Below, one piece after another: positions 3,409 through 24,040 of a stretch of 24,134 nt of DNA (positions are counted from its first letter, which is position 1; every line of letters begins with the position of its first letter). The notes beneath the pieces were generated by a model. The model made no database searches, was not told the DNA's origin, and saw nothing but the letters and a program-made list of their open reading frames with translations. This DNA comes from a virus: IMG/VR virus record IMGVR_UViG_3300043773_000094, positions 1 through 24,134 of that record. One strand, written 5' to 3'. The position numbers and the translations under genes are program-made.

Positions 3409-3666
3409 ATGATACGCACCGCCAAAGGCCCAATCCTGCTCTACATGAATCTTTGCGGGTTCAAGGGCTGGACTAGCTTTTGGAATATGATTTACATGGT
3501 TCCAGGCTACGAGCAACACGAAGCCCTGATACGGCATGAGCGCAAGCACCTAGAGCAGATGGAGCGTGATGGCAAGCTGGTGTATTTGTTCAAGTACAGC
3601 TACTGGCTGTTGCGTTACGGGTATTGGAATAACCCGTATGAAGTTGAGGCACGTGCAGCAAAATAA
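3409..3666 (+). CDS. Small HExxH zincin-like metallopeptidase
   Basis: The 85-aa protein has a clear zinc-protease signature, H43-E44-R-K-H47, within IRHERKHLEQMERDG. It is followed about 30 residues later by NNPYEVEA (E78/E80), the usual place for a third, glutamate ligand. The stretch YLFKYSYWLLRYGYW (59-73) is aromatic and may pack on the active-site helix or touch membrane. This is close to a minimal zincin, with no signal peptide or propeptide. It lies directly before the scaffold and coat genes, where many phages keep a head-maturation protease, but P22-type phages normally do not cut their scaffold, so a role in head assembly is only a possibility. No convincing Shine-Dalgarno precedes the ATG. 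Confidence 0.7.
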   Translation: MIRTAKGPILLYMNLCGFKGWTSFWNMIYMVPGYEQHEALIRHERKHLEQMERDGKLVYLFKYSYWLLRYGYWNNPYEVEARAAK

Positions 3667-4484: not shown

Positions 4485-5696
4485 GTGGCTAACAGTATTC
4501 TTACCATTGACATGATTACTCGGAAGGCTCTTGAGATTCTTGAGAACAACCTAGTAATCACCCGCAACGTAAACCGACAGTACGATGACAGCTTTGCTGT
4601 TAGTGGTGCAAAAATCGGCTCTACCCTGCGTATTCGCCTGCCTGATCGGGCGCTGGTGACTGACGGTGCAGCCCTGCAAGTGCAGGACGATGCCGAGCAA
4701 AGCACCACGCTGACGGTTTCTACCCAAAAGCACATTGGTGTGAACTTCACCACCGCTGAGTTGACTTTGTCGTTGGATGACTTTGCAGACCGGGTTCTCA
4801 AGCCCCGTATCTCTCAGTTGGCCTCCAGCATCGACGCTGACGTTGCTAATGCCTACAAAGCCATTTTCAACACCGTAGGCACTCCCGGCACTTCTCCCGC
4901 TACCGCTTTGGTTCTGTTGCAAGCGCAGCAGAAACTCAACGAATCGGCTGCTGGTATGGCTCCTCGCTACGCTACCGTCAACCCTGCTGCTAACGCTGGC
5001 TTGGTCAACGGCCTGTCTGGTTTCTTTAATCCTACCGACACCATCAGCAAGCAGTTTAAGAACGGCATGATGGGTACTGGCGTGTTGGGCTTTGACGAAA
5101 TCAACATGAGCCAGTCCATCAAGGTTCATACCACCGGCTCCCGTGCTGGTACGATTTTGGTTAACGGTGCTGTTAGCACCCAAGGCCAATCGACCATCAG
5201 CATTGACGGCCTGACTGGTGCGACTGACACGGTGACTGTTGGTGATGTGTTTACGATTGCAAACGTGTTTGCAGTTAACCCACAGACCCGTGAGTCAACT
5301 GGTTCGCTACAGCAATTTGTTGTGACCGCCGCACAAACTGGCGTTAGCAATGCTTTGGCAAACATGGCAATCAGCCCACCAATCTACACCAGCACAAGCG
5401 CCTTGGCTACCGTTAACAGCTTTCCCGCTGACAACGCTGCCGTGACCTTTGTTGGTACGGCGTCTACTGCCTATCCGCAAAACATGATCTACCACAAGGA
5501 CGCCATCACGTTTGCTACTGCTGACCTCGTTATGCCCCAGGGCGTTGACATGGCTGCTCGTGCAAACCACAACGGCATCAGTATGCGTGTGGTTCGTGCT
5601 TACGACATCAACAACGACCGTATGCCTTGCCGTATTGACGTACTGTACGGTTTCAGCACTATTCGTCCCCAGATGGCTTGCCGTCTGTGGGGTTGA
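4485..5696 (+). CDS. Major capsid (coat) protein, P22 gp5-like
   Basis: The 403-aa product is the main shell protein with the P22-coat variant of the HK97 fold. Recognisable parts are the N-terminal ILTIDMITRKALEILENNL helix, TLRIRLPDRALVTDG (about 47-61), the helical spine LSLDDFADRVLKPRISQLASSIDADV (about 95-120), an inserted beta domain at about 215-325 including VGDVFTIANVFAVNPQTRESTG, and the closing segment IDVLYGFSTIRPQMACRLWG. Length is close to P22 gp5 (430 aa). The start is GTG, supported by an AAGGA site at 4474-4478 and by the MANSILT N-terminus; no nearer ATG fits. It directly follows the scaffold gene. Confidence 0.92.
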   Translation: MANSILTIDMITRKALEILENNLVITRNVNRQYDDSFAVSGAKIGSTLRIRLPDRALVTDGAALQVQDDAEQSTTLTVSTQKHIGVNFTTAELTLSLDDFADRVLKPRISQLASSIDADVANAYKAIFNTVGTPGTSPATALVLLQAQQKLNESAAGMAPRYATVNPAANAGLVNGLSGFFNPTDTISKQFKNGMMGTGVLGFDEINMSQSIKVHTTGSRAGTILVNGAVSTQGQSTISIDGLTGATDTVTVGDVFTIANVFAVNPQTRESTGSLQQFVVTAAQTGVSNALANMAISPPIYTSTSALATVNSFPADNAAVTFVGTASTAYPQNMIYHKDAITFATADLVMPQGVDMAARANHNGISMRVVRAYDINNDRMPCRIDVLYGFSTIRPQMACRLWG

Positions 5697-5722
5697 TCTA
5701 ACTCATTTGAAAGGAAATTATC

Positions 5723-6130
5723 ATGGCTCTCCCTAATGGTGCAGGCGGTCAACAACTTGGTGACGGCAACCTACTTGAAGCAGTAATGGGGGTTCAAACC
5801 ATCCCAACTACTTTGACCGGCGACACAACTTTGACTGCGGATCAAGTGGCAGTTGGTTTGGTTGTTTGCAAAAAAGCCTCGGATGCTACGTTGACTGTAA
5901 CGCTGCCCACCGCAGCGTTGCTTGACGCAGCTATCACAAGCGCAAAAGTTGGTTCGTCTTTTGAACTGACCATTTGCAACGACAACAACTCTGGTGCTTC
6001 TTCTACTGTTCCGGTCACAACCGGCACAGGTATCACGGTCTTTGGTTCGGTAACAATTGCCCGTCATGGCGCACACACTTACCGTTTCGTAAAAACTGGC
6101 GATGCTGCTTACTCGGCCTTTTTGAAGTAA
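5723..6130 (+). CDS. Probable capsid decoration / head-associated protein
   Basis: The 135-aa protein (MALPNGAGGQQLGDGNLLEA) is Thr/Val/Ala-rich and looks all-beta. It contains TLTADQVAVGLVV, a SSFELTICNDN strand and a closing RFVKTGDAAYSAFL strand. This arrangement matches small proteins I recall directly after P22-like coat genes, which probably decorate or trimerise on the capsid. No enzyme motif or signal peptide is present. An AAAGGAAA site precedes the ATG. The exact role is inferred from gene order. Confidence 0.6.
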   Translation: MALPNGAGGQQLGDGNLLEAVMGVQTIPTTLTGDTTLTADQVAVGLVVCKKASDATLTVTLPTAALLDAAITSAKVGSSFELTICNDNNSGASSTVPVTTGTGITVFGSVTIARHGAHTYRFVKTGDAAYSAFLK

Positions 6131-19202: not shown

Positions 19203-21227
19203 TTATGTTGAATCTTTCTTCAACATCATTCCTGATGCTGTACCGGGATCGATCACAATCCAACCGTTCTCATGAACTTCAATCAACTTGGCGTCCAACA
19301 GATTGATGATGTACCGGGCGTTCTTGCCATCGATCAGGTTTCGGCGGGAACCGGCTGCCATTGCCCCGGCAAATGTTGAAATGCCATTGGCAACCGCATA
19401 CTCGCGCATCACTGACTTGGTGAGGTAGGGTGCGCCGCCTCGCTCTTCTGCGCCTGAAGACCACCAGGCTTTCTCAAAGTCGGCAAACCCCAGCGACTTA
19501 TCTTTCTGCTTAGTTTCCGGCACTTCACCCTTAATCACCACCGCGCTGGAAACGGCCTCGCCATCCTCATCAAACCAGCCGGGTATTGCCACCGACTCCA
19601 GGTCAACATAGACCGGCGCTGCCATCTCGGCGTCTTTGCTCTTGCGCTGGACGATCTCAATGGACTTGTCGCCCTTGGCGGGTATGACGCTAATTTCAAT
19701 GTCCAAGGCTCCACGCCATGCAGATGAGCCTCGCGCCCGATGTTGGGCTTCCTCGCTGACGCCTGTATGGTGAACAAGAATGACAGTGCAGCCAAACTCT
19801 TGCATGAGGGCCGCGCAGGCGTCCAGCATAGTCTTGGCATCTTGAGCGCTGTTCTCATCACCGGCCATGAAGCGGTGCAAGGTGTCTACCGTAATCACAT
19901 CAGGCTTGATCTTGAGCGCCCGTATAGCCTCCACCACTTTCAGGTAGCCCTCGGCAGTGTTGAGGTCTACGCCCGACTTGCTGACCCACATATTCAGGTT
20001 ACTGACGTTGTTCTTATGCTTCCAGGCTGCAATACGTGAACGCAAGCCGTGATGGCCCTCGCCAGCAAGATAAACCATATTGCCAGGCCTAACCTTGTGA
20101 CCAAACCAAGTGGCTTTGCCTGATGCAATGTGCAGCATCCAGTCCAGCGTTACGAAAGTCTTACCGCCACCGCTGGGGCCATGCACCATGACCAAAGCCT
20201 TGTCCTGTATCCAGTGCTTCACAAGCCACGAAATAGGCGCAGGCTGCGCTGAAAAGCCGTCGGCATGGATTAGGTAGTCTGTCACTGGTGCAGGCGGCTT
20301 GAGCAACAGAGCCAGGTCATGCCCCGCTTGGACGTAATCATTGGCGTCACCAAGGACGGGCGGTGTTGTCATGCGTACCCCATACTTGGCGCTGGCCTGT
20401 TCGGCGTAGCGTTGCCCCACTCCACTTGCGTCATGGTCAGCCACGATGCAAATGTCCAGCGTCGGGTGGCCTTCTTTCAGAATGCCCGTCACCGGCACCA
20501 AGTTGCTGGCGCTGTAAGCCACCGCGCAGGGCTGGCCTGTCACTTCTGCAATGGTGGCGGCTGTCGCAAATCCTTCGGCAATGTAGAGCGTGGTGGCGTC
20601 ATCCATGCTGCCGACCAACCAATACATTGAGCCGGTCTGTCCACCAGGGTGATACAGCTTGCCGCCTTGATGGTCAATGTACTGGATACTGGAGAGTTCG
20701 CCGTCTGAGTTGTACAACGGCACCATTAGCCTGCCGTCACCCGTTATTCTTGCGCCATGCGTCTTGATGCCTTTGCGTTGCAAGTACGGATGCTCTGGGC
20801 TTGCTGCCCCTGCCTGCGACCAGATAAGATCGACGGTGTTGGCCGCTACCTCACGCGCCTTTTTCACCTCGGCGTCCCGCTGGGTCTTGGCCTCCGCCAG
20901 TCGCCGGGACTGCGCCATCTCCTCCACCGGCGTCAGGCTGCGGCCAATGTCTGCTTTCCAACTGGATTCAAACCCAGAGCGCCAGCAGCCAAAGCGCCCT
21001 GCCGGTACGCCATCACTAAAGACTACGTACCAACCCGGCTTGTCGTGGCCCTTTTCGCCCTTGGTGCCACTATTGAAGCGGTGCAGTTTGCCGTCCAGAT
21101 AGATCACATCTGGTGGCTTTAGCCCTGCGCCAAGCATGGCGTCTTTGAGTTGAATGTCAGGTGCATCAACGTGCTTTTGAGGGGGTGGCGACCAAGGGCC
21201 ACCGAGAATATTTGAGAGGTCTGCCAT
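19203..21227 (-). CDS. Primase/helicase: Toprim domain fused to RecA-like ATPase
   Basis: The 674-aa protein probably primes and unwinds DNA at phage replication forks. The N-terminal part (about 30-205) includes PGWYVVFSDGVPAGRFGCW and a charged coil. A Toprim domain follows with IAEGFATA (216-223, catalytic Glu) and VADHDASG (262-269, DxD). After a linker comes a RepA/AAA_25-type ATPase with Walker A GPSGGGKTF (350-358), a strand ending in GEGHHGLRSR, Walker B DVITVDTLHRF (443-453) and the LVHHTG sensor (484-489). The last about 90 residues look like a winged-helix end. No Cys-rich zinc-binding primase domain is visible in the N-terminal part. A GGAG site ten bases upstream supports the ATG. 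It lies just after the PP-loop enzyme gene on the same strand. Confidence 0.86.
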   Translation of the reverse strand: MADLSNILGGPWSPPPQKHVDAPDIQLKDAMLGAGLKPPDVIYLDGKLHRFNSGTKGEKGHDKPGWYVVFSDGVPAGRFGCWRSGFESSWKADIGRSLTPVEEMAQSRRLAEAKTQRDAEVKKAREVAANTVDLIWSQAGAASPEHPYLQRKGIKTHGARITGDGRLMVPLYNSDGELSSIQYIDHQGGKLYHPGGQTGSMYWLVGSMDDATTLYIAEGFATAATIAEVTGQPCAVAYSASNLVPVTGILKEGHPTLDICIVADHDASGVGQRYAEQASAKYGVRMTTPPVLGDANDYVQAGHDLALLLKPPAPVTDYLIHADGFSAQPAPISWLVKHWIQDKALVMVHGPSGGGKTFVTLDWMLHIASGKATWFGHKVRPGNMVYLAGEGHHGLRSRIAAWKHKNNVSNLNMWVSKSGVDLNTAEGYLKVVEAIRALKIKPDVITVDTLHRFMAGDENSAQDAKTMLDACAALMQEFGCTVILVHHTGVSEEAQHRARGSSAWRGALDIEISVIPAKGDKSIEIVQRKSKDAEMAAPVYVDLESVAIPGWFDEDGEAVSSAVVIKGEVPETKQKDKSLGFADFEKAWWSSGAEERGGAPYLTKSVMREYAVANGISTFAGAMAAGSRRNLIDGKNARYIINLLDAKLIEVHENGWIVIDPGTASGMMLKKDST

Positions 21228-21232
21228 GAAAA

Positions 21233-22075
21233 TTAATCTCCACAGAAGCAGGCTATGGCTTCTTCGTTAGGGTCAAACATATCCCGCTGCTCTTGTGAGA
21301 ACTTGAGCATTTGTGCGTAGGATGGGCGATCTGTGCGAAAGTGCGCCCCGCTTGGCTTGGACGCCAACGCCAACGCCTCAATTTTCGCCCACCATACTGC
21401 ACGTTCTGGCTTTTCTGCAATTAGTGAAAGTATTTGTGCGCCACCTTTAAGAAAGCACAGATCACAGTTGCCATGCATGGTCACGCCGTTGTTGTTTGGC
21501 AGGCCCAAGTCAAATGGCTGGCTTCGCCAAAATGCGCCAACATCCTCTTTTGTGATGCCTGCGCTTCCCAATGGGGCCTGCTTTTCTTCATGCTTTCCGT
21601 AGTCCTGATTACCAATCTTGGCAAGCCGACGCTGTTCGTCTGCCCTGATGCCAAGCATTGAATCCCACTCCGTCCAGCCAATAGACTTTAAGTACCTGTG
21701 GATGGTGCGGACTTTTAGTTCCACAGTACAAAATCGCGCCACCGGGTTTGGAACATAGCCGCGCTTGCGAATCAACGCCTCAAACGGCTCGCCATCACGG
21801 CTGGCTGTTTCAAACGTAACTTCCTTAAAGCGTGGTTCGTCATCGGTGTAGGCCAAATACTCCAGCCAAACAATCGGCACCCCCCAATTCACCGCGCAGT
21901 CCCGCACGAACCGCAAGGTTGCCTCGTCCTCTTTGCCGGTGTTGGCAAAGCACACAACGGCCTCTGCCGGTAGCCCTCCATTGCTCTGTAAAACACGCCA
22001 AAGCATATAGGCGCTTGTCCTGCCGCCACTGAAGCTGATGCAGGTTGGTTCGTTGATTTTGAAGGGGTCACTCAT
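21233..22075 (-). CDS. PAPS/APS-reductase-like PP-loop enzyme
   Basis: I place the start at ATG 22075 (280 aa), preceded by a GGAAA; GTG at 22108 or ATG at 22084 would add 11 or 3 residues. The PP-loop ATP/adenylyl-sulfate site is clear: ISFSGGRTSAY (13-23). Then come CFANTGKEDE (42-51), ARFCTVELKVRTIHRYLK (113-130, C116), a CDLCFLKGG pair (C204, C207) and a C-terminal ACFCGD (C276, C278). Apart from one Cys replacing the usual Cys-Cys pair, this resembles assimilatory APS reductases with a [4Fe-4S] cluster. Phage members of the superfamily may act in sulfur or DNA/tRNA thiolation chemistry rather than sulfate assimilation. It is the first gene of the leftward block, next to the primase/helicase. 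Confidence 0.8.
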   Translation of the reverse strand: MSDPFKINEPTCISFSGGRTSAYMLWRVLQSNGGLPAEAVVCFANTGKEDEATLRFVRDCAVNWGVPIVWLEYLAYTDDEPRFKEVTFETASRDGEPFEALIRKRGYVPNPVARFCTVELKVRTIHRYLKSIGWTEWDSMLGIRADEQRRLAKIGNQDYGKHEEKQAPLGSAGITKEDVGAFWRSQPFDLGLPNNNGVTMHGNCDLCFLKGGAQILSLIAEKPERAVWWAKIEALALASKPSGAHFRTDRPSYAQMLKFSQEQRDMFDPNEEAIACFCGD

Positions 22076-22186: not shown

Positions 22187-22852
22187 ATGGCTATTTTGTT
22201 GAAACGCACCGGCGGCCTTGCAGCCAACGGTGTCAAGCTGCTTGTCTACGGGCAAGCAGGGGCTGGCAAGACCAGCTTGATCAAGACTTTACCGCATCCC
22301 GTGGTACTGTCAGCAGAGGGTGGGTTGCTGTCTATCCAAGACGCTGATTTGCCGTATCTTGAAATCACCAGCATGGACGATCTGCGCGAGGCTTACGCCT
22401 GGGTTGCGGATTCTGACCACAAGTCAGTGGCGCTAGACAGCATCTCGGAGATTGCGGAGGTCTGTTTGAACCATGAGAAAAAGGTCAACAAAGACCCAAG
22501 GGCTGCCTATGGCGCAATGCAGGAACAGATGGCCGACATCATTCGGGCCTTCCGTGACCTGCCTGGACGCCATGTTCTGATGACAGCCAAGCTGGAGAAG
22601 ACTCAGGATGAAATGGGCCGGGTGCTGTATTCGCCTTCCATGCCGGGTATTAAGACCGGGCAGGCACTGCCTTACTTTTTCGACGAGGTGCTTGCGCTGC
22701 GGGTTGAGAAGGATGCCGAGGGCAACACTCAACGCGCACTGATGTGCGACAGCGACGGCCTGTGGCTAGCGAAGGATCGTAGCGGCAAGCTGGGTGGCTG
22801 GGAAGCGCCTGACCTGGGCGAGATCATCAACAAGATTGGCGGCGTGGCATGA
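22187..22852 (+). CDS. Sak4-like RecA-fold ATPase (single-strand annealing/recombination)
   Basis: The 221-aa product is an AAA_24-type ATPase of the Sak4 class, thought to act in phage recombination with a DNA-binding partner. Walker A is GQAGAGKTS (22-30) after a short N-terminal strand (GVKLLVYG), followed by VVLSAEGGLLSI (39-50). Walker B is SVALDSISE (80-88, D84), and then comes the helix EKKVNKDPRAAYGAMQEQMADII and a sensor strand RHVLMTAKLEK. The C-terminal half has VLYSPSMPGIKTGQALPYFFDEVLAL, typical of the family. It is first in the rightward operon behind a promoter/operator and a strong AGGAG site. The downstream DUF669 gene is a frequent companion. Confidence 0.85.
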   Translation: MAILLKRTGGLAANGVKLLVYGQAGAGKTSLIKTLPHPVVLSAEGGLLSIQDADLPYLEITSMDDLREAYAWVADSDHKSVALDSISEIAEVCLNHEKKVNKDPRAAYGAMQEQMADIIRAFRDLPGRHVLMTAKLEKTQDEMGRVLYSPSMPGIKTGQALPYFFDEVLALRVEKDAEGNTQRALMCDSDGLWLAKDRSGKLGGWEAPDLGEIINKIGGVA

Positions 22853-23130
22853 AAAAGATCGTCCGGATGTACGTGTACTTTTCTAAGTACTCATTTGAGA
22901 CTACAGGCAGTTGGACAGCTTTCAGTTTTCGCACTGCTGACACTGAATCAATGACGTTTGTTTGCGAACAGGATGTTGAGTTTGACATACCTGAAAACTA
23001 CGATCCCACCGCGCAAAAGATTGCGGCACTGCAGGTCGAAAAAGAAAAGGCGCAAGAAGCGTTCCACAAATCAATCCACCAGATCAACGAAAAGATCAGC
23101 AAACTGCAAGCACTGGAGTACACCCAATGA
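22849..23130 (+). CDS. Conserved hypothetical protein with C-terminal coiled coil
   Basis: The 93-aa product has a beta-rich first half (YVYFSKYSFETTGSWTAFSF, then TFVCEQDVEFDIPENYDPTA) and a coiled-coil second half (about 55-90, AALQVEKEKAQEAFHKSIHQ..LQALE). The pattern is one I recall between Sak4-like and DUF669 genes in related phages; function unknown. Start and stop are fixed by ATGA overlaps with both neighbours, so the operon is translationally coupled. Confidence 0.7.
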   Translation: MKKIVRMYVYFSKYSFETTGSWTAFSFRTADTESMTFVCEQDVEFDIPENYDPTAQKIAALQVEKEKAQEAFHKSIHQINEKISKLQALEYTQ

Positions 23131-23501
23131 ACACTTTATATCAACGTTGGCTTGACGCCAAAAAATTAGAAGCCACGGCAGTTGCCGAGCGCCGGGAACT
23201 AGAAGACCTGATGGTTGAAACCTTTGCCATCCCTAAAGACTTGGATGGCACTGTCAAACACGCCATTGACGGTTACGTCATCAAGACCGAGGGCCGAATC
23301 AACAAGAAGATCGACGCTGACAAACTCCAGATGTTGGCTGCTGAAGCCGGTCTGAGCGAACACCTGTCCAGCCTCTTTCGCTGGAAACCCGAGATCAATG
23401 CAAAGGCTTGGGGCGCGGCTGCTGACGCTGTGACCGGGCCGCTGCTTGGTGCTATTACGTCCACCCCTGGACGCCCCACTTTCACTATCACTAAGGATTA
23501 A
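23127..23501 (+). CDS. Conserved phage protein of the recombination operon
   Basis: The 124-aa product begins with a helix (YQRWLDAKKLEATAVAERRELEDLM), then an IKTEGRINKKIDADKLQMLAAEAGLSEHL block, an LFRWKPEINAKAW block, and ends PLLGAITSTPGRPTFTI. This is a common companion of Sak4/DUF669 genes and often carries a DUF name; it may help recombination or contact nuclease partners, but no catalytic motif is evident. Coupled to the upstream gene by an ATGA overlap. The next gene follows after two bases. Confidence 0.68.
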   Translation: MNTLYQRWLDAKKLEATAVAERRELEDLMVETFAIPKDLDGTVKHAIDGYVIKTEGRINKKIDADKLQMLAAEAGLSEHLSSLFRWKPEINAKAWGAAADAVTGPLLGAITSTPGRPTFTITKD

Positions 23502-23503
23502 TC

Positions 23504-24040
23504 ATGGCTTTTCTTGACGAAGAATTTACCCTCGACACTTTGCCGAAAGGCAACACTAGCAACTTTGAGCCACTGCCCGAAGGTTGGTATAACGCCAGCA
23601 TTACGGGCGCTGAGATTAAGTCTACCAAGGCAGGCGACGGCAAGTACATTGCCTGCAAGTACACCATCACCGGGCCGTCGCATCAGGGGCGCGTGGTGTT
23701 CGGCAACTTGAACATCAAGAACGCCAGCACCAAGGCCGAGGAGATCGGACGCCAGCAGTTGGGCGAGATCATGCGAGCCATTGGCTTGGCAAAGGTGACC
23801 GACACCGACCAACTGATTGGCGGCAACCTGGGCATCAAGCTGGTGGTCAAGACTGGTGAGTACGCCGGGAATGAGATCAAGGGTTACAAATCTTTTGGCG
23901 GCGTGACACCGGCTGCGGTTGCACCGTTTAAGCCTGTTGGGCCTGCTTCCTTTGCAGCTCACATTCCATTAGGAGAAAAAAACGCGACGGTAATGCAGGT
24001 TGCACCGGCTAAGTCTGCGCCACCGTGGGCTAAGAAGTAA
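23504..24040 (+). CDS. DUF669 protein, probable ssDNA-binding partner
   Basis: The 178-aa protein has the DUF669 signature: FEPLPEGWYNASITGAEIKS, TKAGDGKYIACKYTITGP, GRVVFGNLNIKNASTKAEEIGR, and QQLGEIMRAIGLAKVTDTDQLIGG, in an OB-like beta fold. DUF669 proteins are usually found with Sak-type annealing proteins and are thought to act as phage single-strand DNA-binding proteins. The C-terminal third is Pro/Ala-rich (VTPAAVAPFKPVGPASF..) and ends PPWAKK, a basic tip rather than the acidic tip of bacterial SSB. A hairpin follows the stop. Confidence 0.8.
   Translation: MAFLDEEFTLDTLPKGNTSNFEPLPEGWYNASITGAEIKSTKAGDGKYIACKYTITGPSHQGRVVFGNLNIKNASTKAEEIGRQQLGEIMRAIGLAKVTDTDQLIGGNLGIKLVVKTGEYAGNEIKGYKSFGGVTPAAVAPFKPVGPASFAAHIPLGEKNATVMQVAPAKSAPPWAKK

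Follow-up and report, generated by a model that had tools for sequence, protein, structure and literature searches.

The DNA analysed here, a virus record of 24,134 bases, is called the window. An open reading frame on its minus strand, with an ATG at 22075 and a stop at 21233, encodes a 280-residue PP-loop protein, P0001. The gene, its motifs and its neighbors are listed below in window coordinates.

19203-21227, minus strand: primase-helicase (AAA_25, 5.1e-39; Toprim_3, 3e-9), the next gene downstream, across a 5-nt gap
21233-22075, minus strand: NinC-family (PHROG 424) PP-loop protein P0001, 280 aa (open reading frame call, PHROG profile match, tree)
21236-21250, minus strand: C-terminal CFCGD (residues 276-280), with C276 and C278 as a putative sulfur-relay pair (C-terminal Cys pair in 209/210 members)
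21455-21466, minus strand: CDLC (residues 204-207), with C204 and C207 as predicted cluster ligands (both Cys in 210/210 members)
21635-21652, minus strand: GIRADE motif, residues 142-147 (motif comparison with SspD and APS reductase)
21728-21730, minus strand: C116 in FCTVELKV, a predicted cluster ligand; one Cys, then Thr (T117) (Cys in 210/210 members)
22013-22036, minus strand: PP-loop SFSGGRTS, residues 14-21 (sequence; loop conservation over 210 members)
22187-22852, plus strand: Sak4-like ssDNA annealing ATPase (AAA_24), the divergent neighbor (Pfam, PHROG)
23127-23501, plus strand: DUF7173 protein of the replication module (Pfam)
23504-24040, plus strand: DUF669 protein, which also matches PHROG 6015 (single strand DNA binding protein) (Pfam, PHROG)

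Elsewhere in the window, at 3409-3666, an 85-aa open reading frame with an HExxH-like RHERKHLEQ stretch lies between tail-side and capsid genes.

The SFSGGRTS, C116, CDLC and CFCGD motifs that an earlier note had picked out are all present at the residues listed above, and its remark on a single Cys is correct as well: P0001 has C116-T117 where the APS reductases used here have CC. The Cys residues of P0001 are at positions 12, 42, 60, 116, 204, 207, 276 and 278. The model of the protein has a pLDDT of 90.5, falling below 50 at tail residues 271-277, and the C-terminal tail is probably flexible. Selection on the gene is strongly purifying, with a dN/dS of 0.112/2.085 against the relative at locus L005 by a Nei-Gojobori count in which synonymous sites are near or beyond saturation (6/6 pairs tried). 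This ratio, the PHROG 424 match described below and the number of viral relatives together show that the gene is real, beyond chance.

The primase-helicase gene starts at 21227, on the same strand and 5 nt past the stop of the P0001 gene. Within window positions 21228-21250, the CFCGD codons (TGC TTC TGT GGA GAT) contain a GGAG positioned like the ribosome site of the primase-helicase gene, which suggests translational coupling between the two. The idea that CFCGD is kept solely as the ribosome site of the next gene was rejected; relatives with other neighbors and other tail spacings retain the Cys pair. The earlier view of a PP-loop, Fe-S-type protein tied to DNA replication genes is supported, with the cluster itself a prediction. 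For the family at large we counted neighbors at 297 loci, 34 of which had no called family gene; removal of duplicates left 225. With names resting on one representative per cluster, the neighbors within five genes were primase-helicase (42), RusA (20), a PDDEXK_15 nuclease (17), Sak4 (15) and NinB (12). One or more of these five replication or recombination clusters lies within five genes at 87 of the 225 unique loci and none of them at 138, the primase-helicase being the next downstream gene in 23. The downstream neighbor is on the same strand at 168 loci, with a median gap of 0. The early-region position of NinC-family genes may reflect the modular order of phage genomes alone.

The strongest named match of P0001 is PHROG 424, annotated as phosphoadenosine phosphosulfate reductase (4.8e-50). 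This profile match and a shared clade with lambda NinC (99/99 in a 63-row tree; 95/96 in a 59-row tree) place P0001, as judged by sequence, in the PHROG-424/NinC family, which occurs in phages, islands and plasmids and includes lambda NinC. Within this family, which is widespread among phages and other mobile elements, the gene is unremarkable. Viral contigs hold at least 597 relatives (597 of 599 peptide-pattern matches, among the matches listed, encode one), and bacterial genomes yielded 153 candidate stretches, of which the best 80 were taken. The family occurs in 400 of 50,697 phage records and in 223 of 72,556 plasmid records, 139 of the latter predicted to be conjugative; lambda ninC DNA turns up in 382 of 5,426 E. 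coli genomes, 147 of which contain 80% or more of its length. The family gene is not only phage-borne, since in several bacterial genomes (L149, L157, L161, L182 and similar genome loci) it is close to DUF3577, DUF3275 or DUF3085 proteins and belongs to clusters without a viral locus. These loci presumably resemble integrative conjugative elements.

Conservation was scored over 210 full-length proteins of 240-360 aa, drawn from the 225 unique loci and the window. C116, C204 and C207 are Cys in all 210, and the C-terminal Cys pair is retained in 209, the exception being a protein at locus L088 that branches with SspD. The loop positions are nearly as constant (S16 in 208, G17 in 206, G18 in 209, S21 in 209), and Cys 12, 42 and 60 are variable. 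The L088 protein (4977-5753), a PP-loop protein from a gut phage, carries SGGKDS and CT..LK, and its gene is flanked by those for terminase and portal. A second PAPS-reductase annotation in Klebsiella phage N98 (L085, 917-1627) was dropped, having neither a PP-loop nor a cluster motif.

For the placement of the family, reference SspD, DndC, APS/PAPS reductase, TilS and TtcA sequences were picked from genomes via family models; the TilS and TtcA labels are our own assumption from motifs, and reductases under the APS-reductase cut-off were divided into APS and PAPS types by their Cys motifs. The 63-row tree holds 30 of 52 family representatives, with L309, L310 and L314 excluded and L331, L337 and L317 not taken as references. 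In this tree the NinC family forms one group (29 rows, including the window and lambda NinC), which joins SspD and L088 with support of 97/95; the reductases (100/99) and DndC (98/97) lie elsewhere. TtcA is far from the family, beside TilS. A second tree with the longest branches removed, from which TilS, TtcA, L088, L313 and L316 were also excluded, recovers the NinC family with SspD at 95/88. The 59-row tree, which includes the phage protein PptA discussed below and excludes TilS, TtcA, the rows classed as other and the second L085 protein, groups NinC with PptA (81/88) and both with SspD and L088 (91/83). No clear grouping with sulfate-assimilation CysH, which would have told against the earlier note, emerged; the best trees separate the NinC family from the APS/PAPS reductases, although the AU test did not reject their union (p = 0.298, lnL difference 2.03).

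Profile comparisons point in the same direction as the trees. Aligned with hhalign, the family profile scores 191.5 against SspD (210 columns), 129.4 against PptA (198), 106.1 against DndC (157) and 68.9 against APS/PAPS reductases (153), and SspD is the sole PADLOC match for P0001 (1.7e-13). Pfam PAPS_reduct reaches 14.9 bits, under its cut-off of 22.5 bits. An NCBIfam search gave two weak matches only, far under cut-off, with no match to TIGR02055 (APS reductase) and, at E up to 1, none to TIGR03183 (DndC). Structure comparison recovers the PP-loop superfamily, within which the families are not separable and there is no clear winner: the top Foldseek match of the P0001 model is LarE, and the top VIA-align match is the APS reductase 2goy (Z 13.7), followed closely by PAPS reductase, LarE and GMP synthase. 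NcsA (6scy) and TtuA (5gha) are also among the fold matches, and PptA is absent among the Foldseek and VIA-align matches listed (library to April 2026). By tree and profile comparison, the NinC family appears to be a neighbor of SspD, the enzyme that handles sulfur in Ssp DNA phosphorothioation, and P0001 is probably not an APS/PAPS reductase. The motifs agree with this placement, comprising a complete SGGxxS loop, a lone Cys with Thr or Ser after it, GIRxDE, CxxC and a C-terminal Cys pair. The APS-reductase layout with which the protein had previously been described gives way to that of SspD, which the full SGGxxS, C-T for C-C, IRADE and C-terminal Cys pair fit motif by motif, and profile scores descend from SspD through PptA and DndC to the reductases.

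A possible link to sulfur supply comes from the PDB. A phmmer search of P0001 gave no PDB match and a profile of close members only apparent chance matches; the wider family profile matched 21fy chain C, PptA, at 1.6e-7. One segment of chain C recurs unchanged in a protein of Vibrio phage vB_VhaP_VH-5, and this protein in full length matches the chain across all of its 250 residues. Entry 21fy lists E. coli IscS together with PptA, and its depositors evidently work on PptA; it is from the co-listed sequences only that we infer a contact between the two. In the phage genome, PptA (L465, 6989-7741) is a hypothetical protein beside the RNA polymerase gene. PptA and five relatives (6/6) keep the same five Cys as the NinC family, in CT..[LM]K, CxxC and a C-terminal CxxxC like that of lambda NinC, the first of these being C-T-x-x-L-K in PptA. 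PptA differs from the family in its degenerate PP-loop (FSCGAPSA), in lacking GIRxDE and in forming a separate group (100/100). Because its loop is degenerate, the IscS entry of PptA need not carry over to the NinC family. A PptA-type protein of Pseudomonas phage LESphi4 (L470, 3480-4256), encoded between a DNA-binding protein and terminase, is annotated as FAD synthetase-related NinC.

Partner genes were sought in 42 phage records that carry a NinC-family gene, which are possibly fragments and do not include the window record. DUF4007, which we take to be SspB-type, and Aminotran_5, the marker used for SspA/IscS-type desulfurases, were found in 0 of the 42, and both are present in 4/4 Ssp genomes used as controls. 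DndD and the sulfite reductase domain NIR_SIR were likewise found in 0 of these 42 records, with positive bacterial controls. The NinC-family gene therefore travels without Ssp/Dnd or sulfite-reductase partners in these records, and the absence of DUF4007, Aminotran_5 and DndD leaves it with no known DNA-presenting partner there.

We consider it marginally probable, by analogy, that P0001 is a phage ATP-using [4Fe-4S] sulfurtransferase on the SspD side of the PP-loop superfamily, fed by host IscS and acting on nucleic acid. For P0001 itself, we infer the cluster, the use of ATP, the binding of IscS and the acceptor. C116, C204 and C207 would hold a [4Fe-4S] cluster with one open iron, and the mobile C276/C278 pair would accept persulfide sulfur from IscS, the host cysteine desulfurase with Cys328 as its catalytic Cys (PMC7188994), with the cluster acting as the sulfur carrier. 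The SGGRTS loop would use ATP to activate an acceptor oxygen as an adenylate, for which sulfur would then substitute. The acceptor would most likely be nucleic acid, and in the first place phage DNA on which the co-encoded replication and recombination proteins act; DNA is favored by the gene context and by the position of the family on the SspD side of the tree. The sulfurtransferase reading is drawn from analogy with the DndC cluster and the IscS-using Ssp system. In excerpts of two papers, the DndC cluster uses three Cys common to APS reductase, prediction having suggested a fourth ligand, and receives sulfur from DndA/IscS (PMC12193691; PMC10853773); in an excerpt of a third, IscS supplies an E. 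coli Ssp system without sspA (PMC13251355). The earlier suggestion of nucleic-acid sulfur chemistry, or of a tie to host sulfur supply, gains in plausibility from the SspD-side placement and the PDB entry of IscS with PptA, as a proposed role. We regard as rather unlikely the broader proposal that the NinC family, lambda NinC included, carries out IscS-fed thiolation of the element's own DNA (phosphorothioate) or of a recombination intermediate, with no Dnd/Ssp partner and with DNA presented by the element's replication and recombination proteins. If true, lambda DNA would carry an overlooked sulfur mark.

The same sulfur chemistry might instead be directed at host tRNA or the nucleotide pool, as in NcsA/TtuA and TtcA, which we think improbable. 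P0001 matches the sulfur transferases LarE, NcsA and TtuA in fold and shares with them, in kind, three cluster-type Cys and a PP-loop; TtcA, however, is distant in the tree, and the checked neighbors are DNA replication and recombination genes. Slightly less probable still is that the protein binds IscS so as to divert or block it, starving host sulfur trafficking or an IscS-fed DNA-thiolation defense, with sulfur transfer secondary or lost. Such a role would suit the pairing of IscS in 21fy with a phage relative that has a degenerate PP-loop, as well as the presence of the gene on many mobile elements, but the NinC family keeps both the loop, at the frequencies given above, and the five Cys, and a pure blocker needs neither. 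A true APS/PAPS reductase, serving as an auxiliary sulfate-assimilation gene, is highly improbable: the customary annotation of such genes, a review that in excerpt counts phage cysH as assimilatory, not validated (PMC12713726), the AU result and the first rank of 2goy in VIA-align speak for it, and the sub-threshold Pfam score, the missing TIGR02055 match, SGGRTS, C-T and CFCGD in place of SFSGAED, CC and KECGLH, the lowest profile score among the four families and the lack of NIR_SIR in 42/42 phage records speak against it. The placement of the family, its five-Cys design and a relative deposited with IscS make P0001 a candidate, testable sulfurtransferase rather than the product of a sulfate-assimilation gene.

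By routine annotation, NinC-type phage genes are PAPS reductase or cysH, and they have been tallied under sulfur assimilation. Should they encode IscS-fed sulfurtransferases, the assimilation reading is wrong for a family in 400 of 50,697 phage and 223 of 72,556 plasmid records. Part of one paper flags the PAPS-reductase homologues that mobile elements, among them lambda, carry as deserving study (PMC11437467). In excerpts of two others, lambda ninC is non-essential once Q is supplied, in agreement with older work (PMC10695390), and NinC is among the poorly understood proteins without found interactions (PMC3224144). Within the literature searched, mostly open-access and with bioRxiv outside it, we found no report of the NinC family as IscS-fed sulfurtransferases, of NinC biochemistry or of PptA in such a role. 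The role of lambda NinC becomes directly testable, through IscS binding and through the change in sulfur of DNA or tRNA upon its loss.

Among known systems, the APS reductase 2goy has its fold and CxxC in common with P0001. The APS reductases used here differ in their SFSGAED loop (ISFSAED in L336), CC pair, GQRRxQS or similar motif and single C-terminal Cys in KECGLH, and P0001 has neither the CC pair, the degenerate loop nor KECGLH. DndC is like P0001 in its PP-loop (SGGKDS), RWCT (mostly)..MK and CxxC; it differs in being longer, in an additional Cys just before CxxC and in its lower profile score, and the single DndC row compared (L326) is without a matching C-terminal pair. SspD resembles P0001 most closely by profile score, with SGGxxS, RWCT..LK (one Cys, CT), IRADE ([AG]IR.DE), CxxC and a C-terminal Cys pair, which in 8 of 9 references takes the form of CxxC plus two residues at the end (the remaining reference, L321, is a shorter frame and lacks the CxxC end). 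P0001 is nonetheless not inside the SspD clade (100/99), which is sister to the NinC family; its SspD score is 48.9 bits, where the nine matches that we count as true SspD reach 307-465, its loop is SGGRTS where SspD and DndC have SGG[KR]DS, and SspD sits in genomes with SspA/SspB-type genes. Lambda NinC (Nin290) differs in a tail that extends past a CxxxC and in its neighbors, NinB and NinD instead of a primase-helicase. It is 32% identical to P0001, has the same five-Cys set and loop, and is encoded in the early region beside the recombination gene ninB.
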